A program made the position numbers and the translations under genes. Source: a virus. Taken from it: a DNA stretch of 22,336 bases. The DNA is taken from the IMG/VR virus record IMGVR_UViG_3300027971_000243, positions 1 to 22,336 of that record; one strand, 5' to 3'. The notes under the pieces are model-generated. The model saw only the letters and a program-made list of their open reading frames with translations. It did not search any database and had not been told where the DNA came from. Positions 974 to 22,335 of this stretch are shown one piece after another. Within the stretch, counting starts at the first letter, position 1, and each line of letters begins with the position of its first letter.

Positions 974-2896
974 TTATTCCTCGACATTGAGATCTATTTC
1001 CTCTTCACCTTCGGTCAACAGTCCCTCTGACTGTTTAACAATTCCTAAAGAATTTGACATCTTCTTTAAAGTAGACATCATATCAGGAGATAGCGGAGGC
1101 TGCGACATTTGTTTTCGATTAGTTGATTCGCCTAAAGGATTGCTAAAGAATTCTTCATCAAATGGTTTTGCTAAAACGTTTCTATGATCTAACGATCTTT
1201 CAAAATCTACAAACCCGTTTGTTTTTCTGTGTCTTGAACCTTTTCTTGTTCTCTTGCTCTTTTTTACAGGTAGGTCTTTTTCTTCAAGAGATGGTAAAAT
1301 CTCATCTTCATCAATATCACCAGACATTAAAAGCTTAGTGCCTGGTTTCGCATCATCCGCGGCGTTGTCTGAAGCAAATAGCCCAGTAGATTCTTCTTCT
1401 CCAGCTGCAGGCGCTTCTTCTGGCGGTGTTTCGGGAGAGGCCGGTGTTTCTTCGCCACCTTCATCTCCACCGCCAGCCTTGGCTCCTTCGATTCCTAAGT
1501 CAGTAATCTTCTCTTTCAAGCGTTGATCATTCATCTCATCGATCTCTTCATCGTTGAGACCCCAAATTTCACGTTGAACAAATCTACGACTACCCATTCC
1601 TTCAGGAAGCGCTGCACCAATTTCAAACTTTGATTTCCAAAGTTCTAATTTTTGTTGTTGTGCAATCGTTGAAGGATTTGACAATCTAAGAGTAAAGTTT
1701 TGAAGATCTTCACCGTCATATCCATGAGAATATAAATGAATGATTGCTAACTTGCTTAACTCTGCAATCAAAGTCTTTTGAATTACAGCGATCGTACGAG
1801 AGAATCGAATGTCCTCTTGCGCTAGCGTTGCCTTAGAAGAAAGCATTTCATCGTATCCAAGATATGCTCGTGGAACCTTTAATGCAGCAAATAACTTCTT
1901 CTGCATATACTGAACATCTTCTACAGACGCAGCATTTTGTCCGCCAGAAAGTGTATCAATCTTTGTTCCTGACTCACCGCCACGAACAGCAATAAAGTAA
2001 TCGTCCTCAACGCTCAAAGGATTATAACGAAGATCAACACGCCCCGTTGTACGATCTATAACCTGACTGGACCTAAGGTTTTTTCTTTGTTCCTCCACAT
2101 ACATTGGAACGTTTTCTGGAGGGATATTGGCTACGTCAATATAGAATACACGGCGCTCAGGGGCACGAACGATACGATACACCAACATCGCATCTTCTAG
2201 TAGAATTAATTGTCTCCAAATCCTACGAGCAGGCTCAATCAATGATGAACCATAAGGAAGAAACATGTCGTTTCCAAGAAGACGAAAATGGGTTACTTCC
2301 CAATTTTCCAGTGTTCTATTTCCCAATGTTGACCAACGATATCTAACAGCAAACGGATCTTCACGATCGTAGTTCTCTTCACGCTCAATCTCATTTACTG
2401 GGATTGGAAATGCATGAATGACTCCCTGCGTGGGAGAAACATCATTATAAAGAAAGAAATCTCCGTACTTAACCAAGTTTCTTGCCCAAGAACGAAGATT
2501 AAACTCTACGTTGATGATGTTATAAAAAAGATCCTCTAAAATGTCCCTGATCTTTTCATCATCAGAATAAACGTGAAGAACTCTTCCCTTGTCATCCTGT
2601 GCGACTGTCTCATCTGCATAGATGTCCATTGCAGCTGCAATTTCGGCAGTGTACTCCATCTCTTGAAAATCTTGATACCTCATCAGTCGTTCTGATAAGT
2701 TATAAGAATTTGCAGTGATTACAGAGTATGTAGGTGATGTAGAACGTTGAAATAACAGAGCGCCTGATGACTTTACCTTGTCAGCAACTGCAACCGTTGT
2801 ATCAAACGTTTTTACCTTACGTTTAACGACAGGCCCGCTTTTAAAAAGTCGAGACAATCGTTGAAATAGGTTCTTGTTCCTATCGTCTTTGGACAC
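974..2896 (-). CDS. Portal protein, T4 gp20-like
   Basis: Dodecameric portal at the head vertex, the DNA channel and docking site of the terminase. The match is to the T4 gp20 family across residues 60-470: YNLSERLMRYQDFQEME near 65-81, the IAAAMDIYADE helix at 86-96, VPRAYLGYDEMLSSKATLAQEDIRF at 341-365, and the GMGSRRFVQREIWGLNDEEI region at 433-452. It is 640 residues long, against about 524 for T4 gp20. The excess is a C-terminal tail from about 475: a Gly/Glu/Pro/Ala-rich stretch, then a basic patch (KKSKRTRKGSRHRK, 545-558), then an acidic end. It starts with GTG; AGAAGG lies 6 bases upstream, which supports that start. Its neighbours are an acidic small protein and terminase upstream. 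Confidence 0.95.
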   Translation of the reverse strand: MSKDDRNKNLFQRLSRLFKSGPVVKRKVKTFDTTVAVADKVKSSGALLFQRSTSPTYSVITANSYNLSERLMRYQDFQEMEYTAEIAAAMDIYADETVAQDDKGRVLHVYSDDEKIRDILEDLFYNIINVEFNLRSWARNLVKYGDFFLYNDVSPTQGVIHAFPIPVNEIEREENYDREDPFAVRYRWSTLGNRTLENWEVTHFRLLGNDMFLPYGSSLIEPARRIWRQLILLEDAMLVYRIVRAPERRVFYIDVANIPPENVPMYVEEQRKNLRSSQVIDRTTGRVDLRYNPLSVEDDYFIAVRGGESGTKIDTLSGGQNAASVEDVQYMQKKLFAALKVPRAYLGYDEMLSSKATLAQEDIRFSRTIAVIQKTLIAELSKLAIIHLYSHGYDGEDLQNFTLRLSNPSTIAQQQKLELWKSKFEIGAALPEGMGSRRFVQREIWGLNDEEIDEMNDQRLKEKITDLGIEGAKAGGGDEGGEETPASPETPPEEAPAAGEEESTGLFASDNAADDAKPGTKLLMSGDIDEDEILPSLEEKDLPVKKSKRTRKGSRHRKTNGFVDFERSLDHRNVLAKPFDEEFFSNPLGESTNRKQMSQPPLSPDMMSTLKKMSNSLGIVKQSEGLLTEGEEEIDLNVEE

Positions 2897-3357: not shown

Positions 3358-4992
3358 TCACTTGTACAACCAAGATAAATCATCCATTCCATGATCTGTT
3401 TTAGGATCAAGATGCTTAACTTGAGAAGCTTCCCTGAGTTTATAAACATTCGCCTGATTTATTTGATGTTGGCCCTTCGCATTGGCGCCTAATGCATAAG
3501 TTGGATTATTCGGTATTGACCTTGCGTCGATGCTACTAACACCAGTGGCTTTTAACATTGCCATAGCCATGGCATAACCAGCATCATTTGTACCGGTGCC
3601 GCCTTCAGTCAACCACGTACCAATTGCAAGGCTCATGATCAAATCGTCATGACTATCTTTTGATGCCATTGGTTTATTACCGTTCCAAATAAAGGCCTGG
3701 AGTTGATCATAAAGCCTTTGAGAATAACACTTCAAAGTCTTATTACGGATTAATTCCTCTAATTTTGTAAGAATTTGTACTCGCGTCTTTTGGTTCGTAG
3801 GAAACCCGGGCAATTCATCTTGGTTAAGGGGAGTGTAGTTTAAAGCATCTCCTCGATGATTGTGATAGTATATTCTCGGATATCCTGTGTCCCTCAACTT
3901 AACATTGACGAAATATCCGAATGTGTTATTCTCGGGACACAACAAGGCATTGTTATATTTCTTTCCCCACTCGGCAAGAACATCAGCAAACTTTTCAGGT
4001 GGAATCTTACCCATGTATTCTGCAACAACTTCACAAGTCTTTTGATCAAGAACGTGAAACGAAGAATAATCTGCAGCATCTCCGCGGGCAACGTCTGCAG
4101 AGATAACATAGCTCTTTTCGAGGATGGGCTGTTCCCAAACCCAAATGTTTCTATCAAATCCAGTCTTCTCCAACGGTGGACGAATCATAGAACGAAGATC
4201 TTCTAAGTCTTCTGATTGCAGGAATGTGTCACCTGATGTGATGAAGTCACAAAGATACTCTTGACTAACTTTTCTCTTTGGAAGATTACGAGTCTCTTTA
4301 ATAAACCAAGCTTCATCATGCTCAGGATGGACAGTCCACGGTAACCTTATCGGATTAAATTCATTTGTTCCTGCTTCTGCTTCCACCCATAACCGATAAT
4401 ACAGACCACCAACACCATTAGGTGATGAAATAAGAATTGCATTACCACCTGTTGTCAACGTAGGATACAAACCTGTCCAGATCGTATCAAAGTCTCTAAT
4501 GAATGCACACTCGTCAACGATCAATAGAGATAGAGATTCAGAACGACCGGCATCTTCAGATGTAGGAACTGCTTTGACTTGGGAACCATTACTAAAAGAT
4601 ATTTGTTGTTTTGAAGGTTCAAACTTCGGCATCAACAACCAAGTTGGAAGCGATTGTAGCATGACATGAACTTTTTTGATGAAGTTCTGTGCAGTAGCTA
4701 GTTTCGTTGCGATGACGAGGACATTCTTGTCTTTATAGAATATCGCTAACCAAGTTGCATATGCAGCTGAAATCGTAGATAAACCAAGCTGACGAGATTT
4801 TAGAACGATGTTAAAACGATTGTTTTGAAAATCATTTAAGCAATCTTCCTGAAAATCATAAAGATCAAAAGGAATTGTTCCTTTCAACGGATGCTGGATC
4901 TTGGCATATTTTCTGATAAAATACGCTGGGTCTTTACCACAACGTATTATCTCATTAACTTGTTGCTGTTTTGTCAGCAGTTTTTCTTGCAT
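3358..4992 (-). CDS. Terminase large subunit, T4 gp17-like
   Basis: DNA-packaging motor ATPase and headful/end-cutting nuclease that docks on the portal. N-terminal ATPase: Walker A loop K65-S-R-Q-L-G-L-S-T73, Walker B LLIVDE at 156-161, and the SSPNG coupling motif at 189-193. C-terminal RNase H-fold nuclease: D300 in SADVARGD, E354 in LLCPENN, and the D449/D450 pair in DSHDDLIMSLA. At 544 residues it is somewhat shorter than T4 gp17 (610). In T4 the loop reads SRQLGKTT, with lysine near its end. Here that position is Leu and a lysine stands just before the loop instead, as in the deviant Walker A of lambda-type terminases. It starts 4 bases after the stop of the upstream gene. No small-terminase gene is recognisable beside it. 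Confidence 0.96.
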   Translation of the reverse strand: MQEKLLTKQQQVNEIIRCGKDPAYFIRKYAKIQHPLKGTIPFDLYDFQEDCLNDFQNNRFNIVLKSRQLGLSTISAAYATWLAIFYKDKNVLVIATKLATAQNFIKKVHVMLQSLPTWLLMPKFEPSKQQISFSNGSQVKAVPTSEDAGRSESLSLLIVDECAFIRDFDTIWTGLYPTLTTGGNAILISSPNGVGGLYYRLWVEAEAGTNEFNPIRLPWTVHPEHDEAWFIKETRNLPKRKVSQEYLCDFITSGDTFLQSEDLEDLRSMIRPPLEKTGFDRNIWVWEQPILEKSYVISADVARGDAADYSSFHVLDQKTCEVVAEYMGKIPPEKFADVLAEWGKKYNNALLCPENNTFGYFVNVKLRDTGYPRIYYHNHRGDALNYTPLNQDELPGFPTNQKTRVQILTKLEELIRNKTLKCYSQRLYDQLQAFIWNGNKPMASKDSHDDLIMSLAIGTWLTEGGTGTNDAGYAMAMAMLKATGVSSIDARSIPNNPTYALGANAKGQHQINQANVYKLREASQVKHLDPKTDHGMDDLSWLYK

Positions 4993-5416: not shown

Positions 5417-5716
5417 CTAAAACAGCATATTTACCGTAATCTTTTTTCTTCCACCAAGCTTTTCTTGAACCTGCTCTTTTGTTGGACGCCATCCTTCTTT
5501 CCAAAAGGGGAATCTTGGTCTAGCCCAAAAAGTCTCACAGCTTTCGCAACATTCAAACTCCCGATATGATTTTTCATCATCAACAGTTCTCATCAAATAA
5601 TCGCAAACTGGACATGAAAGAGGGACTATTTGTCTCTCTTCAACGGGCTTAATCACATAGAAACCTTCACATTCTTTTATCAATCTATCATTCAAATACG
5701 GTTTCCATTCGTTCAT
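5417..5716 (-). CDS. Zinc-ribbon protein, 99 aa
   Basis: A C-P-V-C pair at residues 35-38 and C-C-E-S-C at 56-60 form a four-cysteine zinc ribbon. The second pair is followed by an aromatic/basic stretch (FWARPRFPFWKEGW) suited to nucleic acid or protein contact. Partner and role are unknown; transcription, recombination or packaging are all possible for phage zinc ribbons. The start ATG overlaps the stop codon of the SbcD-SbcC fusion gene (ATGA), which points to translational coupling and to a role tied to that protein or at least matched expression. The upstream ribosome binding site is weak, consistent with coupling. Confidence 0.78.
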   Translation of the reverse strand: MNEWKPYLNDRLIKECEGFYVIKPVEERQIVPLSCPVCDYLMRTVDDEKSYREFECCESCETFWARPRFPFWKEGWRPTKEQVQEKLGGRKKITVNMLF

Positions 5717-8700
5717 ACAAGCACCATCTTTGAATCCTTTTCGTTCTTTGTGATCTCTAAAATATGATCAGCAACGTCTTTAATTCCATCAACATGAGTA
5801 ATGACCAAAATTAATCTAAAAAACTTCTTAAGGCTTGTCAATAGTCTATTGCAAGATTCTACCCCAGCATCATCTAGTGTTCCAAATCCTTCATCAATGA
5901 TAAACATATCTGATTTTGACATTGAAGAAACATTGACTAATGCAACTCTTAATGCAATAGAAGCAATGGTCTTCTCCATTCCAGAACACAGCTCAATGAT
6001 TCTCCTAGAATCTCCATAATTTATGTAGATCTCAGACGCGTCTGATTCATCATCATTTTCCATTTCAACAGAGAAATCAACAATTCCGTGTAAAATCTTG
6101 GATATCTCTGCATTGATCACAGGAAGCTGTGAACGAGTGATGATCAATGGAATTCCTTTCTTTGAAAAAGCTCCTGAGATGATCTCGTATGTCTTCATCG
6201 TCCTGAGTAGCTTGTCCCTTGATTCTTTCTCTGCATCGAGTTTCTCAAGCTCAGACATCAATCGACCACGTTGCGTAGCCAACATCATCCTTGCATCATC
6301 CCGCTCTTTGATTGACCTAGACAATGTTTCTATTTTTGATCTAAGAGAAACAACCTCTGAATTTTCATCATTTTTTAATGCCTCTTGTAGGTCAATTAAC
6401 TTAAGCTCTGCATCATTTAGATTTGCAGTCAGCGTTTCACAATTTGAACGAATCTTCTCAATCTCTGTCTCTTTACGAGATATTTCAAGGTTCAATTTTG
6501 AAGACAACATCGTTGCCTTCTCTAACTTTGAGATCTTTGAAACCAAAGATTCTTTCTCAAGTTTGCTCAATGCATCGTTAAGGTCATTTAACTTCTTTAA
6601 AGTTGCCGAAGCCTTCTCGTTCTGTGTAACAATCTTGTCCTTATTCTGATGAGCATCCTTAATAAACTTACAAGTAGGATAGTCGTCTCCGCAGGGAACT
6701 TCATCTAGAATTTTTAACGATTTTTGTTGGATCTTTAACAACGTTGACTCTTTGTCATGAAGATGTTGCAATTCAAGAATTGACTTCTCTAATGAATCAA
6801 TCGCAGATAACTTCTTCTTCAAACTGTCAATGTCATCAGAAGCTTCAACTTCCTCAACAATCTTTAGTTTATCTTTTAAAACGATGATCTCATCTTTAAT
6901 AGTGTCAATCTTTGAACATGAATCATTGCATATCGTCTTTAGGCTCTTAACTTTTTGCTCGTGAAGCTGAACATCAATTACAGTCACAGGCTTATGACCC
7001 TTATGAGATGCCAACTCTGTTCTCAATCCAGAGACTTCATTTTGAGCATCCTGGGAAGACGATACCAGTTCATCGATCTTTTCGGATAAATCTAGGATCG
7101 TCTTGCCATGATTTAACTGAAGTTCATCCCAATTTCTATCGGGAAAGTTTTTCAGTTGCGCCTTAAATCCATTGAGATCCTTTGAAGACATGTCATACAT
7201 CTTGTCGAAGATGTCTAGACCTAAGAACCTGGATAACGTTGCTCTTCTTCTAGTTGATCCTTGGTAAATAAATGCATTGATGTCACCCTGCGCAGACAAA
7301 GCGGTCAATGAAAAATCTTCGCTAGTACCAATGAGGTTTCTTATTGCCTTCTCTGTTCCAGTACGAAGATCATCACATAGGTCGTCAACCTCACCGTCAT
7401 CCCTCATCCTATAGAAGTTGAGAGATGTTGATGCAGTTGTCACACCTTTTTTTGTAATTGATTTTGTTGTCTGTCTCTCAGTAATATAAACTTTGCTGTT
7501 GTGATCAAAAATTGCCCGAGCATAACAATAAGGTTTTCTGATGTTACAAACATGCAGGTTCTTTAGCGACCCTCTGTCAGTTGTGTTAAACAATGAATAC
7601 ATCATCGTACCAACAATCGAAGATTTTCCAGTACGATTTGGTCCAAAGATTCCAACGATTCCATTCAGCTTGGTGAAATCAATCTCATTCTCTTCACCAT
7701 ACGCAAAAGTATTGTCCCACTTCAAATGTCTTAAAGACCACTTAGAACCCTTAACATAATCATCAGTTGATGCAACAGCAGACATATACTTTTTGATCTG
7801 ACTGGACATCGAGTCCCAATCAACATCGGTGTTACCATTCTCTTTACAATATGTCTGAATCAGACCCATGATGACATCAGGAGACGTTAGATCAGATTTT
7901 GCTATTGTTGTCGATCCAGTCTTGATTGTCTCATTAGATGCTCGATACTCTGATTTGAAGGTAACCTCTGTTGCTGCATAGGTCGTCTTTAAGGTCTCGT
8001 TCAAAAAGCTTACATCGTCCTGGCTCAATTCCATCTGGGACTTGATCCTGAACCTAGATTGCTTAGGGTACTTAGTGACTTCTTTTAGAAAGTCCTTTTG
8101 TGAACCGCCCCACTGGATCGTCACATACGGTTTTGAATTTGGTAGCTTCTTGAACTTGACATCCCAATCATTCTCATCATTGATATCCCACAAAAAGTAA
8201 CCGTGATCCAACTCCTCGGCATAATTTTGTTGTATTGGGGTTCCTGGAAAACCTATCCACGGCTTCTTTTCGCCGCCAGATGTTTCTCTATATCCGAGAT
8301 ATTGCGTCTGGTGAATGTCACCGAGAAACACATAAGGATAATCCTTAAAAAATTCAACCTTCAATTGTGCTTCGTCAAGTTCCCATCCAGATTCAGTGAC
8401 TGCGCCATGAACTGGGCCATGGTAACATGCGATGTTGATCTTACCAGGCTCCGGCTTCACGTCTTTCCACCCCTCTTCATCAAAGAGAGAATAGACGCAC
8501 CAATTGAATCCAGGATGAAACTCATATACCCCGCTCTTCTTATAGAGATGAACCTTGGGGTTATTTAAGGCTGATACGATCGGAGACACTGCATCTTGTC
8601 TGGACAGGTTTACCAGATTTCCATCATGATTACCGAGTGTGAGGTGAACTTGAGCCACCCCGGCCATTGATTCCAACCACCACGTAAGGAAATCAATATA

Positions 8701-8871
8701 TTCGGGAGAAATTCCGGTTGTCTTTGTATGGAAGATGTCACCACCTATGAAGATGTGATCGACCTTATTCTTCTTACAATCTTTAATGAATGCCGTGAAT
8801 ACTTCACGATACTCATCATGCCGAGAAAGAGACCGAATGTGGATGTCGGCCGTATGAGCAATTCGTACCAT
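5713..8871 (-). CDS. SbcD-SbcC (gp47-gp46) fusion: recombination exonuclease and ATPase in one chain
   Basis: A single 1052-residue protein combining both subunits of the Mre11-Rad50 type complex, which resects DNA ends for recombination-dependent replication. N-terminal calcineurin-like nuclease, about 1-330: D9-x-H11, GGD45, GNHD at 80-83, H151 and GDIH at 184-187, the complete metal ligand set. From about 378 the SMC-type ATPase begins: Walker A GPNRTGKSS (410-418), a long coiled coil (about 590-900) broken by a hook with C727 and C734, signature LCSG (961-964), Walker B FIIDEGFGTLD (990-1000, D993/E994) and switch histidine H1026. In T4 and most bacteria the two are separate proteins. All catalytic motifs are intact, so the fusion is probably active. 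The hook spacing is C-x6-C rather than the usual C-x2-C. The start has only a poor ribosome binding site. Confidence 0.95.
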   Translation of the reverse strand: MVRIAHTADIHIRSLSRHDEYREVFTAFIKDCKKNKVDHIFIGGDIFHTKTTGISPEYIDFLTWWLESMAGVAQVHLTLGNHDGNLVNLSRQDAVSPIVSALNNPKVHLYKKSGVYEFHPGFNWCVYSLFDEEGWKDVKPEPGKINIACYHGPVHGAVTESGWELDEAQLKVEFFKDYPYVFLGDIHQTQYLGYRETSGGEKKPWIGFPGTPIQQNYAEELDHGYFLWDINDENDWDVKFKKLPNSKPYVTIQWGGSQKDFLKEVTKYPKQSRFRIKSQMELSQDDVSFLNETLKTTYAATEVTFKSEYRASNETIKTGSTTIAKSDLTSPDVIMGLIQTYCKENGNTDVDWDSMSSQIKKYMSAVASTDDYVKGSKWSLRHLKWDNTFAYGEENEIDFTKLNGIVGIFGPNRTGKSSIVGTMMYSLFNTTDRGSLKNLHVCNIRKPYCYARAIFDHNSKVYITERQTTKSITKKGVTTASTSLNFYRMRDDGEVDDLCDDLRTGTEKAIRNLIGTSEDFSLTALSAQGDINAFIYQGSTRRRATLSRFLGLDIFDKMYDMSSKDLNGFKAQLKNFPDRNWDELQLNHGKTILDLSEKIDELVSSSQDAQNEVSGLRTELASHKGHKPVTVIDVQLHEQKVKSLKTICNDSCSKIDTIKDEIIVLKDKLKIVEEVEASDDIDSLKKKLSAIDSLEKSILELQHLHDKESTLLKIQQKSLKILDEVPCGDDYPTCKFIKDAHQNKDKIVTQNEKASATLKKLNDLNDALSKLEKESLVSKISKLEKATMLSSKLNLEISRKETEIEKIRSNCETLTANLNDAELKLIDLQEALKNDENSEVVSLRSKIETLSRSIKERDDARMMLATQRGRLMSELEKLDAEKESRDKLLRTMKTYEIISGAFSKKGIPLIITRSQLPVINAEISKILHGIVDFSVEMENDDESDASEIYINYGDSRRIIELCSGMEKTIASIALRVALVNVSSMSKSDMFIIDEGFGTLDDAGVESCNRLLTSLKKFFRLILVITHVDGIKDVADHILEITKNEKDSKMVLV

Positions 8872-8916: not shown

Positions 8917-9894
8917 TTAAAACTTAAAACTAGAAGAAACGAATTTATCCAGTTTGGTCAAGAACCTGTCTTCCCAGAATAAAGGTTTGGCCTCAGAAAG
9001 AGCTTTTTCGAACTCAGCCTTGGACATGTTTCCGGGATCTCCCCATGGTCTCACATCCACTACTACGACATCCACGTTGTATTCTTGTAGTTTCTTCACG
9101 ATCCGTGGGGTTTTCTTCTGCCACATGTCACCATCGAGAGCCAAAGCAACAGGCGTTCCATGTAGAAGAATTTTGTTGAATACCTCATGTCGTTCATCAA
9201 GGTCTGACCCCAACAACGCAGTCGAATTCTCTGGACATTTGACCATGTCAAATGGTCCCTCGCAGAGAACCAACCGTTTGTTCCAATCCAAGTTGATCTC
9301 ATTGAAGACCACAGGGTTCTTATCTACATCTGGGTTGTCATACTTTGGCTTCTTGTCTTTGTCCACTGCTCGAGCCACAAAGTAATTTAATTCACCGCTA
9401 GAATCAAAGGACGGCATGATGACCCTTCTCTTCCATCTCTGTTCATCAGAGACTCCAAACTTGAAGTACCAGGCATCACGGTCAGTCAATCCCCTAGAAT
9501 AAACGTACCTCCATGCCGCCTTGACGTCTGGGTCCATCTCATTTGCCAGGGTCAACAATCGAAAATCCTTTGGCAACTCTATCTTCTGGATCTTCTCAAC
9601 ATCTGCGGTTACCAGATCCGACCTGCCACCTTGTCCAGTTAATTCCCGATATGCGTTCAGGTGTTCCTGTGTCCCATATTTCCGTAATAAAGGAGCAAGG
9701 CTCCGGGCCTTCCAACCGCATACCCAACAGTGGCACGCATCATCAGTTGTACGGATGGCCAACTTCTTTTTAGTCGGATCTGTCGGGGCGCAGATAGGAC
9801 ACCTGACATCGAAGTTGAGACCGTTTCCAGAGATTCGACCTCGACCAAAGATCGACTCATAAAACTTCAGCTTATCCGTGAGAGAATGGACCAC
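8917..9894 (-). CDS. DNA primase, DnaG/gp61-type with zinc finger and TOPRIM
   Basis: Makes RNA primers for lagging-strand replication. The N-terminal zinc-binding domain has C32-P-I-C35 and C56-W-V-C59 (with H55 alongside) and recognises template. The catalytic TOPRIM domain has E212 in LVLCEGPFD and D254-G-D256 in LALDGDMW, followed by a VVVVDVRPWGDPGNMS segment (276-291) typical of the third acidic motif region. The length of 325 residues resembles phage gp61-type primases (T4 gp61 is about 342); no helicase domain follows, so it would work with a separate replicative helicase encoded elsewhere. The only start fitting the reading frame is GTG at 9894, without a clear ribosome binding site, so the exact N-terminus is less certain than the identity. 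Confidence 0.93.
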   Translation of the reverse strand: MVHSLTDKLKFYESIFGRGRISGNGLNFDVRCPICAPTDPTKKKLAIRTTDDACHCWVCGWKARSLAPLLRKYGTQEHLNAYRELTGQGGRSDLVTADVEKIQKIELPKDFRLLTLANEMDPDVKAAWRYVYSRGLTDRDAWYFKFGVSDEQRWKRRVIMPSFDSSGELNYFVARAVDKDKKPKYDNPDVDKNPVVFNEINLDWNKRLVLCEGPFDMVKCPENSTALLGSDLDERHEVFNKILLHGTPVALALDGDMWQKKTPRIVKKLQEYNVDVVVVDVRPWGDPGNMSKAEFEKALSEAKPLFWEDRFLTKLDKFVSSSFKF

Positions 9895-9930: not shown

Positions 9931-10488
9931 CTAATCTTGGATGCTAGCAGCCCGGGCAATCACATAGGAATCACACATGTCGCGAGAAGCATCAATAGGC
10001 TTACCATTCTTTTTTAGGGGCCATTGGACATGTTTGAGGTCATGTTCTGACATGTATTTAAAGACCTGTTCTTTTCCACTTATGCCGGCTATTGACGTCC
10101 GCTGCATCTTAATTCCACAGAGTTTTCTCGCGTGAGATGAAGAGATGTACTCAGGATCAACCTTGAATATCTCCCTTGAGATGTACGACACGATGCCGTT
10201 GAACCTCATGAGGGTAGTGATTGTCGCAGCAGAAGACATCCCTGCACGAAACCCCATGAGTGGCTCTTCTAGTGCCACGCGATATTCACCAGGAAACTTT
10301 TTGAATAACTCAGAGAGTTCGACGGCAGTAAGATCAGCTTTTTCCCACAACGTCTTACATTTCTTGAATTCGATTCTGTCTAGGTGAAGAATGTGTGATC
10401 CCTTATCATCAGGTTGAATGTCAGGATTGATGATGCAGACACCCGTCACCGACGTTGAAACATCCAATCCCAGAATTAATGATGACAC
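9931..10488 (-). CDS. RuvC-like Holliday junction resolvase
   Basis: RNase H-fold junction resolvase: it opens with LILGLDVSTSVTG (residues 4-16), the RuvC first strand with catalytic D9. E74 in VALEEP is the second acid, and D170-x-x-D173 in DASRDMCDSYVIA gives the terminal pair with the same three-residue spacing as E. coli RuvC (D138/D141). The length of 185 residues fits the family. It would resolve or debranch recombination intermediates before packaging, the role T4 gives to the unrelated endonuclease VII (gp49). It starts with GTG; an in-frame stop lies 15 bases upstream of it, so no longer protein is possible. It sits between the gp4-like nuclease and the primase, within the DNA-processing block. 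Confidence 0.92.
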   Translation of the reverse strand: MSSLILGLDVSTSVTGVCIINPDIQPDDKGSHILHLDRIEFKKCKTLWEKADLTAVELSELFKKFPGEYRVALEEPLMGFRAGMSSAATITTLMRFNGIVSYISREIFKVDPEYISSSHARKLCGIKMQRTSIAGISGKEQVFKYMSEHDLKHVQWPLKKNGKPIDASRDMCDSYVIARAASIQD

Positions 10489-10528: not shown

Positions 10529-10936
10529 TTAAAGTAGACCCATATCTTTTAATTCTATTTCCGTAAGCACTTTGTAGGTCAACCCATGGGTCGTGCACCA
10601 TTCTTTTGCAGCCCTTACCTTCTTAATTACCGTAGGTTGATTTAACTTACGAGACGGTTTGATCTCTATCACAACCTTAGTTCCATCCTTGTACTCAACT
10701 TGGAAGTCTGGATAGTACTTGCGGACCTTTTTTGTCTTCTGATTAGAAATGTATTCTATAATGAGCTTTTCATAAGACCACGAAACAACATCAGGATTTT
10801 CATCCAAGTGTACCATGTACTTTTGTTCCCATCCTGAACGGTATTTACATTCACCTGCAATCGGAGAAGAGTAGGTACCCCTGTGATAATGACCCTTACG
10901 TTTTCTCTTCCGTTTATGAGGTTTCTTTGGAGGCAT
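10529..10936 (-). CDS. Head-completion nuclease, T4 gp4-like (TnsA-type PD-(D/E)XK fold)
   Basis: 135 residues. After a very basic N-terminus (KKPHKRKRKRK, 4-14) comes GTY at 20-22 and KYRSGWE at 31-37, then D77 in YYPDF and E91-I-K93 in VIEIKP. This is the E...D...ExK set of the TnsA-like endonuclease fold. The order of motifs, the YRS-W-E start, the NP-x-V/I-x-x-W segment after it and the final Y-K-V-L-T-E segment (125-130) match T4 gp4 as I recall it; gp4 is needed to complete filled heads before tail joining. The ATG follows the stop of the 835-residue structural gene by one base. The same nuclease module occurs in the endonuclease gene 3 kb upstream. A mobile-element nuclease is the alternative, but the small size favours gp4. 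Confidence 0.85.
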   Translation of the reverse strand: MPPKKPHKRKRKRKGHYHRGTYSSPIAGECKYRSGWEQKYMVHLDENPDVVSWSYEKLIIEYISNQKTKKVRKYYPDFQVEYKDGTKVVIEIKPSRKLNQPTVIKKVRAAKEWCTTHGLTYKVLTEIELKDMGLL

Positions 10937-10937: not shown

Positions 10938-13445
10938 TTAAAAATCGTACTTAACTTTGAACAGCAACTTTTCTGAATGCTTTTTCATAATTGGTTGAGC
11001 AAGTTGAGTTTTCATTACAACGTTAAGATTGTCATCATGAAAATTTATTCCTGACACATATACGTAATCCATGTCAGTTTCATTCGGTTTTAATGATGAA
11101 GGTAACGATTTAAAAGATGGATTTGATGAAGAATTAAGATGATTTGCGGGTGCAACAGATTCTAATCGTAGGACATGAATGTTCTGCTCACCCTTAAAAG
11201 ACATTTCATATTGATGTTTACCAAAGAAATAAAGATGAGGACTTTTAATCGCAATTATTCCTTCGTTGTAGAATATTGTTCCGACTGAATTCCACGTTGA
11301 TGCTTTTGTGTCTGAATCTGCTCGATGAAGTGTTCCATTTCCATCATCTTTAATTGTAATTCCAACAGCCCCGCCGCTGCCGGACATCATAGAGTCCGAT
11401 ATGATAAAACTACCAGGCAAAATTCTAAGACCGTAATACAGGTTGCTAATGTCAAAGAAAACGACTTGGTTTGAAGATGAATCTTGCGTCCTTTGAAAAA
11501 TAGCTAAAGGCGCTTTCTCTTGTAACCCTTGGTTAAAATTTCCGCTTTCAATCGATTTATTAATAGATCTTTGATAATTTGTAAATGAAGGACCGGCAGC
11601 TGCAGAAGGTTCCTCTGGGGTGAATCCTACTAATTCATTTGCAAACAAATTTGCATCTTCTATAGACTTTCCAGAATTAGAAGTTCCTTCAAAAGAAGTC
11701 TTAAATAGCATAGATGACGTTGACAACATATTATTAAGATCGATAAATCCGATTGTACGATTATTCAAGTCATCGACGTAGAGATTTTGTAACGGTTCAT
11801 AATTCAAAAGATCATAATTTGGATAAAAGTTTCCATCGTCACAAGGAAGTATCATTAGATTTCTTTTTCTTATGAAGCTTTGATCATATAAAAAGTCGTT
11901 TGCAGATCTTACTGTTGTGGTTGTATCTAATGCAACACCGGTCAGATGATGTTGCCTAGGATTATGACCAGAAGAAAAATCTTTTAAAAAGTTTTCAGAG
12001 TTAATGTAATGACCACCAACTCCAAAAGATAAAGCAACGTTAAAAGGATCAGAAGTTGTACCGTCTACTTCTAGAAATGGAGTTTGTAATATTCCTCCAT
12101 GATCTCCAACAAATCGCCTAATTGAAGAAGACTCTACAAAAAATGGAGGAACATAAAAGCAAACGCCTGAATCATAACCAACGTTTGATAATCCAGTTGA
12201 ACTTGAAGCTGCGATATCAGCGTCGGTCACATAAAATTGTTTGATAGAAATATCATGTAATTCTGCTTTAAGAGGGTGATTAAATTGATAACGATCAGGT
12301 GCGTCTATTGACGTCGCTGGTTTTAACGTAATCAATCCATCTCTTTTTGCAGGATCTGCAGCAAAAAAACTTTTTAATTCATTGTTTCCTGAGTTTGTAC
12401 CTTCATAATAATTTCCCAAGCACATAACATCAGGATTTGTTGGAGTCATCCCATTATCAGGATACACTTTTGGTGCAACTGTTCCAGAAAATATAGAAAA
12501 TGTCCCTTTGTCAGCTCCGTCAATATTAAATGATCCAGTTCCTTGATTAATCAAGTTAGTGCCCCAACGGACGACTACATGATGCCAATGGTTCCATTTT
12601 AAAGAATTGTCTTCAGATAAAAAAACCAAATTTTTAGGATAAGAACCAAATGAAGCAACAGAAGGTGCTATATCTGAGCTATGACTTAATTGAAGCTGCA
12701 AGCGAAAGGCGTTTGGAAATCCATTTTCATCTTTTGATGATCCTGTTACTAAAGACAATGCGTAACTGGAAGATAGGTGAAATATCGTTGCAGCTTTAAA
12801 ATGACCAGTAGAATCTAAGTTTTTATATCTTGGGTTTATATAAAAATCAAAACTAAATGCTCCGCTAAGTGCATATCTTCCAAATGAATATCCTTCATGA
12901 AGAATTCCATTATCATCATTTGGATAAAGCAAAACTGAAGAAGTAGGAACAGTAGAAGAAGAAAAGAAATTTAAACAATGATAATTTGAATATGCCCAAT
13001 GTGCTGAAGGATAGGATGCGCGATAATAATCAGATAAATTTTCTTTAACAACAAGCTTCCTTAAGGTATTTGACGTGAAATTAAAAGAAGGCGTAAACCT
13101 GATCACATCTAAAGCTTTTTGTTTTTTCGCAGAAATACCTTGATCATTCGCAGCTTTCAAATAAGCGTTTAATTGATTAAAGATGTTAAAAGTTGTTTGA
13201 GAATTATTGTTTTTACTCTTGGCTATAGCTTTTATGTTCTCTAATGTAGAAGTTAAATCAGAATCGTCGTGTGTCGATTCTATAAATGAAGATAACGGTG
13301 CAACTTCTTTTTCTATATCAGATCTTCTAGCAAAAACAAAGACTGATCCTGTTACGCCGCTGGAACTAGAAGAATAATGTCTTGACGGATTTGTCGCGAT
13401 TGTTACACTTTGAAAATCAGTCTGATTGACCTTAAATATAGACAT
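10938..13445 (-). CDS. Large virion structural protein with LamG/concanavalin-like domain
   Basis: 835 residues, Ser/Asn/Phe-rich, no membrane segment or signal peptide. Residues about 190-410 look like a LamG/concanavalin-A-type beta sandwich: the ALSGAFSFDFYINP strand (192-205), WNHWHHVVVRW (284-294) and a GSFNIDG-x-x-x-GTFS turn (304-317). This fold usually binds carbohydrate or packs as a structural beta sandwich. The C-terminal 175 residues (about 660-835: YYGLRILPGSFIISD, VGTIFYNEGIIAI, SSNPSF, LLFKVKYDF) match the end of the 412-residue protein upstream. I infer a baseplate, tail-fibre or other outer virion protein that contacts the host surface. The ATG has TTGGGA shortly upstream. 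It could instead be a decoration protein. Confidence 0.85.
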   Translation of the reverse strand: MSIFKVNQTDFQSVTIATNPSRHYSSSSSGVTGSVFVFARRSDIEKEVAPLSSFIESTHDDSDLTSTLENIKAIAKSKNNNSQTTFNIFNQLNAYLKAANDQGISAKKQKALDVIRFTPSFNFTSNTLRKLVVKENLSDYYRASYPSAHWAYSNYHCLNFFSSSTVPTSSVLLYPNDDNGILHEGYSFGRYALSGAFSFDFYINPRYKNLDSTGHFKAATIFHLSSSYALSLVTGSSKDENGFPNAFRLQLQLSHSSDIAPSVASFGSYPKNLVFLSEDNSLKWNHWHHVVVRWGTNLINQGTGSFNIDGADKGTFSIFSGTVAPKVYPDNGMTPTNPDVMCLGNYYEGTNSGNNELKSFFAADPAKRDGLITLKPATSIDAPDRYQFNHPLKAELHDISIKQFYVTDADIAASSSTGLSNVGYDSGVCFYVPPFFVESSSIRRFVGDHGGILQTPFLEVDGTTSDPFNVALSFGVGGHYINSENFLKDFSSGHNPRQHHLTGVALDTTTTVRSANDFLYDQSFIRKRNLMILPCDDGNFYPNYDLLNYEPLQNLYVDDLNNRTIGFIDLNNMLSTSSMLFKTSFEGTSNSGKSIEDANLFANELVGFTPEEPSAAAGPSFTNYQRSINKSIESGNFNQGLQEKAPLAIFQRTQDSSSNQVVFFDISNLYYGLRILPGSFIISDSMMSGSGGAVGITIKDDGNGTLHRADSDTKASTWNSVGTIFYNEGIIAIKSPHLYFFGKHQYEMSFKGEQNIHVLRLESVAPANHLNSSSNPSFKSLPSSLKPNETDMDYVYVSGINFHDDNLNVVMKTQLAQPIMKKHSEKLLFKVKYDF

Positions 13446-13488: not shown

Positions 13489-13818
13489 CTAAACTGCTTC
13501 TGAAAACACTAAAGGTAATTCTTCAACAATTCCAATTAATCTTGGAGATAAAACCTTAATAAAGTTTTCAACAAATTCGTCTTGAACCATTCCCGAATCT
13601 TCCATACATGAATGAAGAAGCTCATGTAGTAATAGCTCTTTTTTGTGATCGCTTTGTAGTCTATCTCTAACTAAAATTAGTTGATCATCATAATCAATAA
13701 AACTTTTTATTTCTGGGTCTTGTACGCCTTTTTGCGAAAGAACTAAATCAAAAGTAGCATCATCTACTGATGCTATCGAATAAACTCTATTTCCCACTTT
13801 TATAGCGCTCGATTTCAT
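13489..13818 (-). CDS. Small HExxH zinc metallopeptidase-like protein, 109 aa
   Basis: The helix LLLHELLHSCMEDSG carries H65-E-L-L-H69, the zinc-binding and catalytic motif of gluzincin-type metallopeptidases. D81, E82 and E85 in the following QDEFVENF helix are third-ligand candidates. The N-terminal 55 residues form an IKVGNRVYSIASVDD-type beta region, as in other minimal phage HExxH proteins. Substrate is unknown: a virion assembly protein, host repressor or nothing at all are possible. The first 32 bases of the gene overlap the end of the upstream endonuclease gene, and its AGGAG ribosome binding site lies inside that gene, 12 bases before the ATG. It is followed by the LamG-like structural gene after 43 bases. 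Confidence 0.8.
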   Translation of the reverse strand: MKSSAIKVGNRVYSIASVDDATFDLVLSQKGVQDPEIKSFIDYDDQLILVRDRLQSDHKKELLLHELLHSCMEDSGMVQDEFVENFIKVLSPRLIGIVEELPLVFSEAV

Positions 13819-14902
13819 TTTTAAAATTTTCTCCTAGATCTTTTATCATTAATTTAATTTCTTTATCACCCAAAAGTTCATAACTTATTCCAAAAGAATT
13901 TAAGGCTTCTTTTACTAGATTCAACTTTTCTTTCACTGATTCTAATTGTTGAATTTGTGTTGGCTTAATTTCAAATATCTTAACAGCGCCATTAACATAC
14001 TCTACTTTGAAATCTGGTATTGCTCTTCTACCATCTTTTAATCTAACGATCTCTGGCTCATATTGATATGATACTACTTCTTCGCAATCATCCCACCACA
14101 TCATTGCAGCAAGTTCCCAAGAAGACTTAAATTTAACAGAAGATGATTTTTTACAATCATACGTTCCGTTTAAATGTCCTGTTTTGTATCCAGAAACTCC
14201 GCTTATAACTCTTTCAATTGCTGCTTTTGAATATTTTTCTCTTTGTTCTTGCGTCATTAAATCTTTTGTTTTTCCGAACATCGGATTTTTTTTTCCATAA
14301 TTGGAACGCATTCCTGACTCAAATTGTCTTTTTTGAATTTTTGAAATTTTTCTTCCTGCGTTTAAAAGCCTCTCGTCTGTCTTAGTTGTAAGACCATTAT
14401 TCCAAGCTTTCTTACCACACATCCCATTTTCTTTACCATACATAGGGTTTCTAGACCCTGAAAAAGCACAGTTTTTTGAGCAGAATCTAACGTGCCTTTT
14501 TATAAAATCTTTTTGAAATTCTTTTCCACAACCTTCGCAGATTTTTGATATTATCTTAGAATCTCTTTCGTATTTATGATGATAAAAGCAATCAGAAGAG
14601 CAGTACTTCGCTTTTTTTTCATAAGACTTAGTTGCTTCAAAAGCTTTACTGCAATTTAGGCATTGCTTTGTAATGCTACTCGTTAAAGATTTTGAAATTG
14701 AAATTTTCATGCAATCTTGGTTGCATGTCTTTTTTTCTCTAAATCTGTAAGGAACAACAAATTGTTTGTTACAAACAACACAGATATTCGTTACTATTTT
14801 CTTTCTAGACAAGAAATAACATTCCTTACAACAAAACGTTTTTTTCTTTACTGAAAGAAAATCAATTTTGCAATTCTTACAATTATAGCTTGATTGTTTC
14901 AT
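13787..14902 (-). CDS. Putative free-standing homing endonuclease: four zinc fingers, NUMOD3 motifs, PD-(D/E)XK nuclease
   Basis: A modular 371-residue protein. Residues 1-146 hold four treble-clef-like cysteine fingers, numbered from the in-frame TTG one codon upstream: C9/C12-C26/C29, C42/C45-C61/C65, C82/C85-C102/C106 and C123/C126-C142/C146. Then come NUMOD3-like DNA-binding motifs, RNPMYGKENGM (152-162) and KNPMFGK (206-212), typical of phage homing endonucleases. The C-terminus (247-315) is a TnsA-like nuclease: GTY, KFKSSWE264, PD298F, E312-I-K314. I find no HNH or GIY-YIG motif. It sits between two structural genes and overlaps the downstream HExxH gene by 32 bases. The start (ATG 14902) has no ribosome binding site and lies inside a 12-bp hairpin. 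Mobility and target are inferred. A non-mobile regulatory nuclease is the alternative. Confidence 0.85.
   Translation of the reverse strand: MKQSSYNCKNCKIDFLSVKKKTFCCKECYFLSRKKIVTNICVVCNKQFVVPYRFREKKTCNQDCMKISISKSLTSSITKQCLNCSKAFEATKSYEKKAKYCSSDCFYHHKYERDSKIISKICEGCGKEFQKDFIKRHVRFCSKNCAFSGSRNPMYGKENGMCGKKAWNNGLTTKTDERLLNAGRKISKIQKRQFESGMRSNYGKKNPMFGKTKDLMTQEQREKYSKAAIERVISGVSGYKTGHLNGTYDCKKSSSVKFKSSWELAAMMWWDDCEEVVSYQYEPEIVRLKDGRRAIPDFKVEYVNGAVKIFEIKPTQIQQLESVKEKLNLVKEALNSFGISYELLGDKEIKLMIKDLGENFKNEIERYKSGK
13831..13835 (-). promoter_or_regulatory. AGGAG ribosome binding site of the HExxH gene, inside the endonuclease coding region
   Basis: AGGAG on the minus strand, 12 bases before the ATG at 13818, separated by an A/T-only spacer. 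The spacing is long. The site is buried in the last codons of the upstream endonuclease gene, so translation of that gene may compete with or assist initiation here. Confidence 0.55.
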
Positions 14903-14912
14903 CAAGCTATAA
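14883..14912 (-). promoter_or_regulatory. Perfect 12-bp inverted repeat covering the endonuclease start codon
   Basis: On the minus strand TTATAGCTTGAT, a six-base loop GAAACA and ATCAAGCTATAA form a perfect 12-bp stem. The A and U of the start codon (14902-14901) are the last paired bases of the 5' arm, and its G is the first loop base. The only other nearby in-frame start, TTG at 14905, is also paired. No U-run follows on either strand, so this does not look like an intrinsic terminator. The hairpin begins 13 bases after the stop codon of the upstream 412-residue gene. It most likely limits translation of the endonuclease. Confidence 0.7.
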
Positions 14913-14925: not shown

Positions 14926-16164
14926 TTACTTTGTGTAACTTCTTGACTTCTTTTTCGCAAAGTCTAATCGAACTCTAAATGTTAAGTCCCGCTCCGGACT
15001 CTTTTCAACTGGTCTACTTAGCTTAGCTACGGCTAGAAGATTGTCATTGGCATCATACAAACCTATTGAGGTTACGAATGTAAATGTCTGTTGTGTGTCT
15101 TCGCTTCCTGGTTCTATTACTACTATTCTATTATTAGAGTCAGTGAATGTTGGATTTGATGAGTAGTTGAATTCATCAGCAGATGCACGACAGAATATCA
15201 AAGTGCTATTAATGTTTGTTGTGTTCTGAAATGTTATGGCAGTTTGTGAACCAGAACTAAATCTTGTAGCGCAGATGTTATCAACGATGTTGTCGATCGA
15301 CCCTGAAACAATAAAATCAGGAATAAACTTTGATTTTCCTGATGTTTCGGTACCAGATGCCCCTAAAACAGTAAAACCGGTTGGGGTCATGGCGTCGATT
15401 GTTCCTGACACAAATTGGCTTGAAGAGGTGATCTTTTCGAGATCAAGAACTGCGATACCACGATCGTAGAACAATAGTCCTACTGTTCTATTTGTGTCAG
15501 CGGCGTCAACGATATTTCCTAATTGTCCTCCAAATTCCGTAAGTTTTGAAGTTGAAGCGCCGATGTCAGTGTATATGGAGACTCCAGTTTCTGAAGTTTT
15601 GTAAAGGTTAGGGATGTTTGTCCCGCCGTCATATCTTGATAATGAAGCTGTCTGGAAGAATCTCATTGCAAAAGATTCCCGTTTAATTTGATCTCTTGAG
15701 AACAATCTCTTAAATGCAATAAAAAAAGCTGCATCGATTTGGTCATTTGGAGAAGCAGAACCATACGGAGCGATGAATTGTGAATCTGCATCGCCTAACA
15801 GAAGTTGAGAAAATTGTCTATAATTGTCCATTTTTTCCCTCATCATTAATGACGATGATGGAAAGACTTCTTTTCCTACTGAATCTACAGAAGCTAGAGA
15901 TGATGAAATTACGTCTGAGTTTTGATATAACCCTACAGTACAATCAAACACAGGGTTTGCTGTTTGAAGAGTAAAATCTTGATCATAAATGGTTTGAAAC
16001 AACGATGAAGTAATTCCAGGACCGATACCACCAGTTACGAAAACTTGATATTTTCTTCTTGATGTTGAACCGCTTATATCTTCTTGAATTACGTCAATGA
16101 GCTGACTTAAAAAAGAACGAGCTGTTTTGATGTCTGATGGTTCTAGGTTCTTAAACGTTGCCAT
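14926..16164 (-). CDS. Virion structural protein sharing a C-terminal module with the LamG-like protein, 412 aa
   Basis: No named family recognised. The N-terminal 130 residues (SDIKTARSFLSQLIDVIQEDISGS and onward) are separate; from about 145 on, the protein matches the end of the 835-residue structural protein in motif order: AFKRLFSRDQIKRESFAMRF (150-169), VGLLFYDRGIAVLD (228-241), SSNPTF (335-340), TSIGLYDANDNLLAVAKLSRP (365-385), LTFRVRLDF (394-402). The C-terminal tail is basic (KKKSRSYTK). It lacks the lectin-like domain. I infer a baseplate or tail protein with its own N-terminal attachment region. The start ATG is 6 bases after the stop of the upstream gene, and AAGAAG overlapping that stop region serves as ribosome binding site. 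Confidence 0.8.
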   Translation of the reverse strand: MATFKNLEPSDIKTARSFLSQLIDVIQEDISGSTSRRKYQVFVTGGIGPGITSSLFQTIYDQDFTLQTANPVFDCTVGLYQNSDVISSSLASVDSVGKEVFPSSSLMMREKMDNYRQFSQLLLGDADSQFIAPYGSASPNDQIDAAFFIAFKRLFSRDQIKRESFAMRFFQTASLSRYDGGTNIPNLYKTSETGVSIYTDIGASTSKLTEFGGQLGNIVDAADTNRTVGLLFYDRGIAVLDLEKITSSSQFVSGTIDAMTPTGFTVLGASGTETSGKSKFIPDFIVSGSIDNIVDNICATRFSSGSQTAITFQNTTNINSTLIFCRASADEFNYSSNPTFTDSNNRIVVIEPGSEDTQQTFTFVTSIGLYDANDNLLAVAKLSRPVEKSPERDLTFRVRLDFAKKKSRSYTK

Positions 16165-16170: not shown

Positions 16171-16890
16171 TTACTTCTTAATTTGAACTGCTATATCTTT
16201 TACGGCACCGGACTGCATTCCAGTTACCCTAACATAACTCTTAATAGTATCACGAGTTGTTCCCGTTCCATAAACATCAAACACCGTTTGTGTTAATGAT
16301 TTAGAATTAATTTTAAAGCTTAGAGATGAGCCTAAACTACTTGTTCTTCCTGAACTTGTTAATGTGTAGTATGCTCTTTGCTGATTGTCAATGTTATTTG
16401 GAGTTTTGGACCCGTTATCGATGACCAAGAAAAGATTTGGTACATCTACTAAAAATGTTTGATCTCGTAACTCTACGTCAATAGACGTTTCATTTAACAA
16501 TGTTTGCTCAAACAGCAATGCTGAAGACGTTTGTCTTCCAGTCCCAGTTGTTGTATAAACAGTGACTACTTCATTTGATGAAGCGTTGTCACCACTAAAG
16601 TTAAACCGTGGAAGACGAATTAAATTGGAGTTTGAAACGCTAATCAATTTATATTTTTGAGCGTGCGCTTGATTTGTAAGAGCCTCAAATATTGGAGTGT
16701 TCTTTTCAATCTTTTCTCTTCCGACCGATCTTCCATATTTTGAAATAATCGCGTAATTGACTTCATCATCTCCCAACGCAAATTTAAACAGAGTAAAATC
16801 CCCGTTGTTTCTAGAAAGAAACTGTCTTCCAGTATCAGTAAGGACTGCATCTAAAATTATATTATTAGTACTATGATCTAAAAAACCCAT
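16171..16890 (-). CDS. Phage structural protein with tail-fibre-like N-terminus, 239 aa
   Basis: The N-terminal 45 residues (IILDAVLTDTGRQFLSR, then FTLFKFALGDDEVNY) resemble the LTD-x-GR...FALGDDEV signature that recurs at the start of phage tail-fibre or baseplate proteins, where it probably mediates attachment to the virion. The remainder is beta-rich and Ser/Thr/Asn-rich, as expected of an extended virion protein, with no catalytic motif. At 239 residues it is short for a complete fibre, so an adaptor or connector between tail and larger adhesins is likelier. It lies 6 bases before the 412-residue gene and 54 bases after the fibronectin-domain gene, within one structural operon. The ribosome binding site is weak. 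Confidence 0.78.
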   Translation of the reverse strand: MGFLDHSTNNIILDAVLTDTGRQFLSRNNGDFTLFKFALGDDEVNYAIISKYGRSVGREKIEKNTPIFEALTNQAHAQKYKLISVSNSNLIRLPRFNFSGDNASSNEVVTVYTTTGTGRQTSSALLFEQTLLNETSIDVELRDQTFLVDVPNLFLVIDNGSKTPNNIDNQQRAYYTLTSSGRTSSLGSSLSFKINSKSLTQTVFDVYGTGTTRDTIKSYVRVTGMQSGAVKDIAVQIKK

Positions 16891-21800: not shown

Positions 21801-22335
21801 CCATTGCTTTATTAATAGAACCAATTGATGAAGCCATAGATGAATTAATCACGCCCATGTTTAGCCCCATGTCTGGTTGAGATGAATTTTGAACAACAGG
21901 TTGTGTCGAAGGAGAAATATTAATATTTCCTATTGCGGTCTTGAACTTTTCTAGATCAAGTCTAAAAAATCCATCATTTGGTAAAGTTGAAAAATTATCA
22001 TCTGTATTTTTTTGATTATTTTCATTTAGCAAATTTTTTGAATGAGAAAATAATAAATTTCTTAATTCATGTATCGCAAGAATCCAAAGTTTTGATGATG
22101 AGTATTTTAATGATGCATTTTGAGGTAGCGTTTTTATATCAGATAAAATAACATCTAAATTTAATTTTTCAGGAAGATTTTTAGCTATAGAAGATAAATT
22201 AATTTTTTTTGTTTTATGACTATCATCATTAAAAGATTTTTCTACAAATTCAACAGGAGAAAATTCATAAATTTTATTATGTAAATTTAAATTCGTGCCG
22301 GCCAAAGACAACATTTTTAAAAGACTGTTCAGCAT
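18835..22335 (-). CDS. Very large unknown protein, 1166 aa, possibly cut by the window edge
   Basis: I recognise no domain. The reading frame runs to the last base of the window, where an ATG stands at 22335. The upstream sequence is missing, so this may be an internal methionine and the true protein longer. The chain is Asn/Ser/Lys/Phe-rich and lacks a signal peptide. Helical segments alternate with low-complexity linkers: about residues 140-170 (Ser/Asn/Gln), about 365 (AQQQDANEQSQKPE) and about 1020-1055 (Ser/Thr/Asn). There are no catalytic Cys/His clusters or nucleotide-binding loops. Its size and its place before adhesion-type structural genes suggest a virion protein (tail, baseplate or internal), but that is inference only. 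Its DNA is the most AT-rich in the window. Confidence 0.75.
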   Translation of the reverse strand: MLNSLLKMLSLAGTNLNLHNKIYEFSPVEFVEKSFNDDSHKTKKINLSSIAKNLPEKLNLDVILSDIKTLPQNASLKYSSSKLWILAIHELRNLLFSHSKNLLNENNQKNTDDNFSTLPNDGFFRLDLEKFKTAIGNINISPSTQPVVQNSSQPDMGLNMGVINSSMASSIGSINKAMGSIDYLLNMIKDDESKTALIFHLITKELRHSLCFDSESQALKTFRGPGTSPITSKNFFDSVFGIYPANKDIFQKSPDFTAVNSSLMDLCYSRDLSNQNRAVLNLEEKEPIHISNELVVGSKYFFDAETIFTNVVGQTINIERIDNFQRLLSRLDNNFFDIMSNFGLLPTDDSAFVAQQQDANEQSQKPEVVSLDPVAFFENVMSYIVDENGMSKIYQFNPNDSTGIYFFKQSDRGVAAMFSLAAQENDFGRSVRSLLFFLINDIAKSGEDVEIDKALFNTLRSGGFEKNQDVESKIDTLKHNLDEYIKNQFNVYSSMSTDAALVEITKNLRGMYENAKAAPWESYVPCKFDNAQYLGQVIRSNSFIKDLAKIMKEFKDAYVKYACKGGSNSKFQQVSVDTMMLLFFNGICRMISSFSDNTVVSISIDDTTGGESIQAGGNDAVGTNALNILGFAKYGLVLYVNVESTPKSIIKKQISSYIQKELKTLLNVSFGVLNTLDVLSSNIKTIDSAIKKFSSEAIGYLLRYLNNDAKKLSLVLKEPQLMLMLSTVEDTFQSFKSFSDDDKEPEEEDLFTNYIENISYYPKMTENFELLFKDNKEFTTKKGYNKKILSVGIPQGLFERLLKTSSRNTKNSKHDDIFKVCVYKTDLLNGDIIYRPKIFLFEASRFPIRNYGSLRRTRNSDYHEIFKAVPTRNYSLFTDIKSIDTGNPEYWDDKSNAFGAEYSFLSRDEKNEIIENHVTSFLLENYLKIVTGMTFNDVNFNLDSREVEALLGLMNDETLKEKINKTFNVLENRKIKNSNNVSKSISNVLGVGGKNLYSNQVSSSTNTTSISSNQNNTKFFKASASSNVGMLSFPRSVNAASEIFQNPDAYISKILQPKKFDRVFNIIFDPEFQVDYEKTISTTLGAQKFDFLLKQEKFIQYNNTKNEYVDSDKSPNDTSLENFFISIETHAEEYVLPLSVKKSASSFETTIKANLVSNTTKNVYRK

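Follow-up and report, generated by a model that had tools for sequence, protein, structure and literature searches.

The stretch of DNA analysed here (the window) comprises 22,336 nucleotides from a virus, positions 1 to 22,336 of the IMG/VR record IMGVR_UViG_3300027971_000243, and carries one gene that encodes both the nuclease and the ATPase of the SbcDC (gp47-gp46, Mre11-Rad50) type. The gene starts at an ATG at 8871 and ends at a stop codon at 5715-5713, with 1052 codons and zero internal stops. The initial annotation had proposed that a nuclease and an ATPase follow each other without a stop in one chain, which the single frame, the motifs and the family matches bear out; it was silent on the strand, and the junction coordinates that it gave agree with the minus strand. 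The gene and its parts are as follows.

5713..8871, minus strand: SbcDC (gp47-gp46 / Mre11-Rad50) fusion gene, 1052 aa (open frame and family matches)
7951..8871, minus strand: nuclease core and following β-rich region, residues 1-307, with the D9-H187 ligands (Metallophos, model, conservation)
8317-8319, minus strand: codon of D185, in the GDxH motif (alignment)
8269..8283, minus strand: turn of a predicted β-hairpin, residues 197-201, between strands 190-196 and 202-208; the split site in 16 relatives (model, locus comparison)
7765..7881, minus strand: two helices (331-345, 352-369) within residues 331-369 (model)
7744..7764, minus strand: connector from the nuclease side to the ATPase side, residues 370-376 (model)
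7216..7743, minus strand: ATPase N-lobe, residues 377-552, with Walker A and Q528 (model, conservation)
6166..7215, minus strand: coiled coil, residues 553-902 (model)
6670..6693, minus strand: tip of the coiled coil, with C727-x6-C734 instead of a CXXC zinc hook (alignment)
5716..6165, minus strand: ATPase C-lobe, residues 903-1052, with LCSG, Walker B DE and H1026 (conservation, motifs)

The calcineurin-type phosphoesterase motifs I-IV are present, and D9, H11, D45, N81, H82, H151, D185 and H187 all stand at the positions previously assigned to them. The same is true of the two-lobed ABC ATPase, with its Walker A (GPNRTGKS, residues 410-417), LCSG signature (961-964), Walker B (D993/E994) and H-loop (H1026). 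The 18 positions checked are conserved in 128-132 of the 132 rows of an alignment in which some contigs are present twice. Pfam Metallophos covers residues 3-188 (E 1.6e-14), PHROG_100 (SbcD-like) residues 1-371 (E 9.7e-27) and PHROG_77 (SbcC-like) residues 276-1050 (E 7.2e-50), and the proposed relation to gp47 and gp46 is thereby upheld.

SbcD/SbcC and Mre11/Rad50 have a canonical motif V His and a CXXC hook, which binds zinc. The tip of the window protein has C-x6-C and no CXXC, and of the 132 rows 125 share this spacing; CXXC is kept in five distant fusions (L081, L082, L083, L159 and L160), and two rows (L067 and L071) have neither. CXXC is found in T4 gp46, Cr30 gp46, Listeria phage LMTA-57 and phage G gp375, while the SbcC of a Moorella phage shows neither of the two spacings. 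With the 69-aa hook stretch as query, the phage collection gave zero matches even at an E-value of 10, and a search of the open-licence PMC literature found no report of a variant phage zinc hook of the C-x6-C form. The phosphoesterase motifs had been described as complete; the residues are indeed there, but D185 occupies the position of a His in T4 gp47 (GHFH), and motif V reads GDxH instead of the canonical GHxH. GDxH is present in 128 of the 132 rows, with ADxH in three and GHxH in one. An Asp replacing a catalytic His is reported for Mimivirus R555 in the passage on that protein (PMC3175470), at what is, on our own reading, the D185 position; since R555 is a recognised member, the window protein is filed here as a divergent relative that would work like the Mre11/Rad50 family.

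An AlphaFold2 model of the fusion protein, built from 36 aligned intact sequences, has the expected order of nuclease, β-rich region, two helices, connector, ATPase lobe, coiled coil and second lobe. By analogy, the β-rich region after the nuclease core would be the capping domain, and helices 331-345 and 352-369 the Rad50-binding helix-loop-helix. A long coiled coil, modelled as helices within residues 553-902, lies between the ATPase lobes. The connector, counted from the last nuclease-side helix to the first ATPase strand, is 7 residues long in 119 of 120 intact rows. A Foldseek search of the PDB returned Rad50/SbcC structures, other SMC-type ATPases and E. coli SbcD (4m0v). In a Foldseek-type search of BFVD, the top matches were giant-virus proteins of 969-1417 aa aligned over most of their length, several of them named DNA repair (exonuclease), the best being 16-22% identical to the fusion protein; long proteins of Tenacibaculum phages pT24 and PTm1 were also returned.

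Relatives were collected from IMG/VR by a first scan with the protein as query, which gave 91 relatives (the best 80 of the 91 were kept, representing 79 loci), and by a scan with an alignment as query, which gave at least 594 stretches encoding some relative, the best 80 of which were fetched. The frame was surveyed in 155 loci, a set that includes duplicate fetches of some contigs and omits L001, L084 and L158: in 119 the entire gene forms a single open frame, 22 are partial and uninterrupted, and 14 are interrupted (13 full-length and one partial). A frame change adjoins the linker in just one of the interrupted loci, L076, the remaining 13 being broken elsewhere. L076 has several frame changes across its contig, is probably low-quality sequence and lies outside the set described next; L050 has one in-frame stop, at codon 278.

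A second set of 146 non-identical loci was obtained from these and later scans by skipping 89 loci that duplicate another over the 300 bases around the split site and 10 in which the site is not covered, near-identical contigs being counted separately. In this set 127 loci are intact, their frame running on beyond H187 for more than 200 codons and so through the connector; 16 are split and three unclear. The intact loci include three contigs from metagenome-assembled genomes (MAGs) and LMTA-57. The connector is open in all 127 intact loci and in all 15 split loci that cover it. The same fusion does occur in other phages, cultured ones among them, and the frame holds through the junction, where the initial annotation had feared a sequencing error. 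The gene is a genuine, well conserved single-chain SbcDC and no assembly error. Of two scans of bacterial genomes, the first found no relative, and the one with an alignment as query gave the three MAG contigs (L166-L168), which are taken as phage sequence or contamination. In L166 and L167, from MAGs labelled Halobacteriovorax and Methylococcaceae, the fused gene is full-length; both are probably phage contigs binned with bacteria.

The fusion is not new in kind and joins an already published class. Yoshida, Claverie and Ogata (2011, PMC3175470) list, in their passages on the subject, thirteen Mre11/Rad50 fusions, namely Mimivirus R555, one of Bacillus phage 0305phi8-36, and those of five bacteria, in some of which the fusion is plasmid-borne, and six eukaryotes; they also describe many R555 homologues in aquatic viral metagenomes, some suggested to be phage-derived. 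Like those fusions as described there, the window gene places the nuclease before the ATPase in a single frame and keeps a short link and what appear to be the Rad50-binding helices; its top BFVD matches are long giant-virus proteins, and a viral origin had been proposed for the aquatic homologues. It differs from them in its C-x6-C tip, in belonging to a phage with a T4-like portal, and in the low identity of the giant-virus matches. Cultured phages also have a long gene: Microcystis phage Mel-JY01 carries one of this kind (28% identity), and with the distant relative L083 as query, long genes were found in Tenacibaculum phages (PTm1), Sphingomonas phage PAU (gp288) and Chryseobacterium phage MA9V-1. 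A 2021 survey of jumbo phages treats SbcC and SbcD as partners and does not mention a fusion in its passages on them (PMC7824862), and our search of the open-licence PMC literature found no further report of a fused phage SbcCD. T4 gp47/gp46 shares with the window protein both activities, judged by motif, its place in a tailed phage and, by inference, a comparable role, but T4 has two genes, with 46.1 and 46.2 between them, where the window has one, and its gp47 reads GHFH and its gp46 CPTC. E. coli SbcD/SbcC and cellular Mre11/Rad50 are similar in sequence and fold, and differ in being two subunits.

The fusion gene lies between replication and packaging genes, with a primase and a RuvC-like resolvase upstream and a T4-type terminase and portal downstream.

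974..2896, minus strand: T4-like portal protein (Pfam Portal_T4, E 4.5e-72)
3358..4992, minus strand: terminase large subunit, T4likevirus-type (Pfam Terminase_6N)
5417..5716, minus strand: small open reading frame (ORF) sharing 4 nt with the fusion gene at its stop (ORF list)
8917..9894, minus strand: DNA primase, upstream neighbour (PHROG_47, E 2.2e-42)
9931..10488, minus strand: RuvC-like Holliday junction resolvase (PHROG_159, E 7.6e-9)
10529-10936: ORF matching PHROG_218 (PHROG)
13787-14905, minus strand: probable homing-endonuclease-like ORF (N-terminal match to HNH-endonuclease PHROG_1271, E 2.8e-12; PHROG_218 stretch)
10938-13445, 14926-16164, 16171-16890, 16945-18828 and 18835-22335, minus strand: five proteins of 239-1166 aa, presumably structural, with no PHROG match at E 0.01 (PHROG search)

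Taken together, we consider that a tailed phage with a T4-like portal here makes its SbcCD/Mre11-Rad50 enzyme as a single chain; this enzyme would act as a dimer and resect DNA ends for recombination-dependent replication (probability about 0.85). Each chain would contribute a single nuclease together with the helices that bind Rad50, and a single ABC-ATPase head, the lobes of which are joined by the coiled coil. In this family Mre11 and Rad50 form a working 2:2 assembly, to which two fused chains would be equal; the expected form is a homodimer, joined through the nuclease and through ATP-sandwiched heads as the equivalent of 2:2 gp47/gp46. By analogy with the family, the ATP-bound enzyme would grip DNA ends, and hydrolysis would open the nuclease site; ends and hairpins would be trimmed, and the resulting single strand would pass to a RecA-family recombinase and feed recombination-dependent replication. 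Direct computation gave, besides the single frame, the conserved motifs and the predicted fold, a RecA-family gene in 11 of 11 relatives tested. Sixteen larger relatives, mostly contigs whose completeness is not established, were scanned as well, and in 14 of them PHROG_100 matches nothing but the fused or split gene. These two results and the primase and RuvC-like neighbours make resection for recombination-dependent replication the best reading of the role. An SbcC homologue is described as essential in the giant phage SPN3US in the passage that deals with it (PMC5105663).

Several points weigh against this interpretation, the nature of those contigs being one. LR756508 has no PHROG_100 match above threshold, and in LR756501 (735 kb) a separate SbcC-like match outscores the fusion and the sole hit to PHROG_100 falls outside it. 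On the fusion protein, neither the Pfam ATPase models nor the listed NCBIfam models for SbcC, SbcD, Rad50 and Mre11 reach their curated cut-offs. With GDxH and C-x6-C, metal binding and hook chemistry may differ. The confidence of the structural model is moderate (mean pLDDT 79.9, pTM 0.50), and the placing of the nuclease relative to the ATPase is therefore not fixed by it.

Whether the fusion matters for the enzyme is a separate question. It could be neutral, the protein behaving as the two-subunit enzyme does with stoichiometry and gating unchanged, which is compatible with the single-chain resection enzyme proposed here and which we rate at even odds. The initial annotation had suggested that the fusion fixes the stoichiometry and might change how ATP gates the nuclease. 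The 7-residue connector is near the nine to twelve residues, for a distance of about 28 Å, that the relevant passage of Yoshida et al. gives as compatible with the known Mre11/Rad50 geometry (PMC3175470), and since such a short link fits, ATP gating need not differ in the fusion. A fixed stoichiometry is plausible, and is weakened by the split relatives, where residues 1 to ~196, the catalytic core, form a polypeptide of their own; that relatives tolerate a cut of the chain elsewhere favours neutrality. Against it stands the connector itself, which is joined in every intact locus and in every split locus that covers it, and this hints at some advantage of the joined state.

It is unlikely that internal initiation near the junction additionally makes a separate ATPase, which would leave the chain only partly a fusion. 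Candidate starts exist (ATG at codons 335, 355 and 363; TTG at codon 383), and alignment columns 363 and 388 hold a Met in 26 and 27 of the 132 rows, respectively, but no Met is widely conserved in the region and all four codons lack a Shine-Dalgarno match, the latter being weak evidence because the gene's own ATG has no match in the same script either. A defence or counter-defence ATPase-nuclease of the Lamassu-like kind, in place of a recombination enzyme, is highly improbable: the PADLOC models LmuB (residues 385-1048, E 7.6e-24) and mad3 (E 4.3e-17) do match, but they are confined to the Rad50-like half, where PHROG_77 reaches E 7.2e-50, the gene sits between the primase/resolvase and the packaging genes, and PHROG_77 matches the fused or split gene in 16 of 16 larger relatives. 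Finally, a sequencing or assembly error fusing two separate genes, of which the LMTA-57 "fusion" is a likely example, has a negligible chance here and is contradicted by the conservation of the frame across loci, with 127 of 146 (LMTA-57 among them) read through the connector at identities down to 37% among the 36 aligned intact sequences, and by the one long gene in genomes of cultured phages. In LMTA-57 (L249) the single long gene, annotated as one "recombination exonuclease" of 1009 aa, spans 3030 nt, whereas in its siblings LMSP-25 and LMTA-34, both listed at 100.0% identity to it, two features span 3031 nt; that fusion is likely artefactual or very recent.

A fresher observation than the fusion itself is a recurrent split at one hairpin of the nuclease. 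In 16 of the 146 non-identical loci (L017, L021, L082, L097, L115, L117, L122, L123, L134, L141, L171, L254, L256, L259, L261 and L287), a number that is no frequency because three later scans were run with split sequences, or with the endonuclease found in them, as query, the reading frame stops 30-38 codons past the H187 position and the remainder forms a second gene. At the split loci that were read closely, the break falls between the equivalents of strands 190-196 and 202-208, after the last metal ligand. In a post hoc comparison of charges, made without a null model and with the start codon of each head set by a script rule, the first halves end in an acidic tail in 16 of 16 loci (net -4 to -7 over ten residues; for example ...EVELEIDEADL...), and the second halves have a basic start in 15 of 16 (+1 to +6; for example MSKRIRIRTKKPW...). 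The second half of L097 scores 0 with its upstream ATG, and has an internal ATG followed by a basic stretch nearly the same as that of L017. The stop and start codons of the two halves overlap by 4 nt in nine of the 16 loci.

An endonuclease-like gene lies between the halves in three of the split loci and is absent from the other 13. The insert in L021 matches a PHROG homing endonuclease (E 4.1e-17) and is the same as in L052, L088, L169 and L170; the one in L171, on a 201-kb contig, is a relative of it (39% identity); and the one in L082 is another protein, which contains a TnsA-like domain and matches an HNH-endonuclease PHROG. L017 has merely a short remnant between its halves. No intron or RNA element was found in the split loci at the Rfam gathering threshold (seven sources), the weak matches in the L021 and L082 inserts lying far below gathering scores, and the open-licence PMC literature searched held no report of a split SbcDC or gp47.

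On trees that leave out the split site, the split state needs five changes among 84 rows (10 split) and, on a second such tree, seven among 66 rows (15 split; L261 not included). Within the wider clade of the window, split-first and intact-first histories take five steps each (66-row tree, counted by eye). In two intervals flanking the site, L017 shares 90% and 83% nucleotide identity with L021, compared with 73-79% and 72-73% with the intact L009 and L013, whereas in 12 of the remaining 13 intervals L009 is at least as similar to it as L021 is. L097 is mixed: beside the site it is 78% and 78% identical to L017 versus 70-76% and 63-72% to three intact relatives, and in the next interval 67% versus 79-88%. 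The L017/L021 pattern may point to short-range gene conversion, a process known for homing endonucleases according to the part of PMC2988022 that treats them. The dN/dS of both halves is 0.03-0.09 where finite, dS being infinite in many comparisons and the estimate spanning time before the split. In a model of the first half of L134 (215 aa, mean pLDDT 82.8, partner half absent), the acidic tail forms no strand; residues 190-194 have pLDDT <50 and residues 202-207 are helical.

The split loci resemble Aeh1 nrdA/mobE, T4 gene 60/mobA and phage 25 gene 43, where, in the account given in PMC2988022, a contiguous gene is cut at an intron-less endonuclease gene and the pieces presumably reassemble. 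They differ from those cases in the gene concerned, in the single hairpin site shared by 16 loci, in the charged extensions and in the 13 loci that have no endonuclease gene. We put at about one in two the chance that this is a naturally split nuclease, in which the acidic and basic extensions could zip the halves together, the 4-nt overlap would couple their synthesis, and homing endonucleases would have seeded and spread the split. The hairpin of the window (YRE-TSGGE-KKPWI) is longer than in many more distant intact relatives, and may even be the healed scar of an earlier split.

The window and its relatives add a large environmental phage group (127 intact non-identical loci) to a class known from thirteen cases in 2011 (PMC3175470, passages cited above), and offer a single-gene, single-chain version of a usually two-subunit enzyme that is handy for tests of gating and stoichiometry. 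Beyond the fusion, the interest lies in two features that the initial annotation did not claim, the altered hook across the family and the recurrent hairpin split in relatives. Nature has, in the split relatives, run an experiment that can show which covalent links the enzyme requires, and these loci may also offer a ready-made way of dividing a nuclease.

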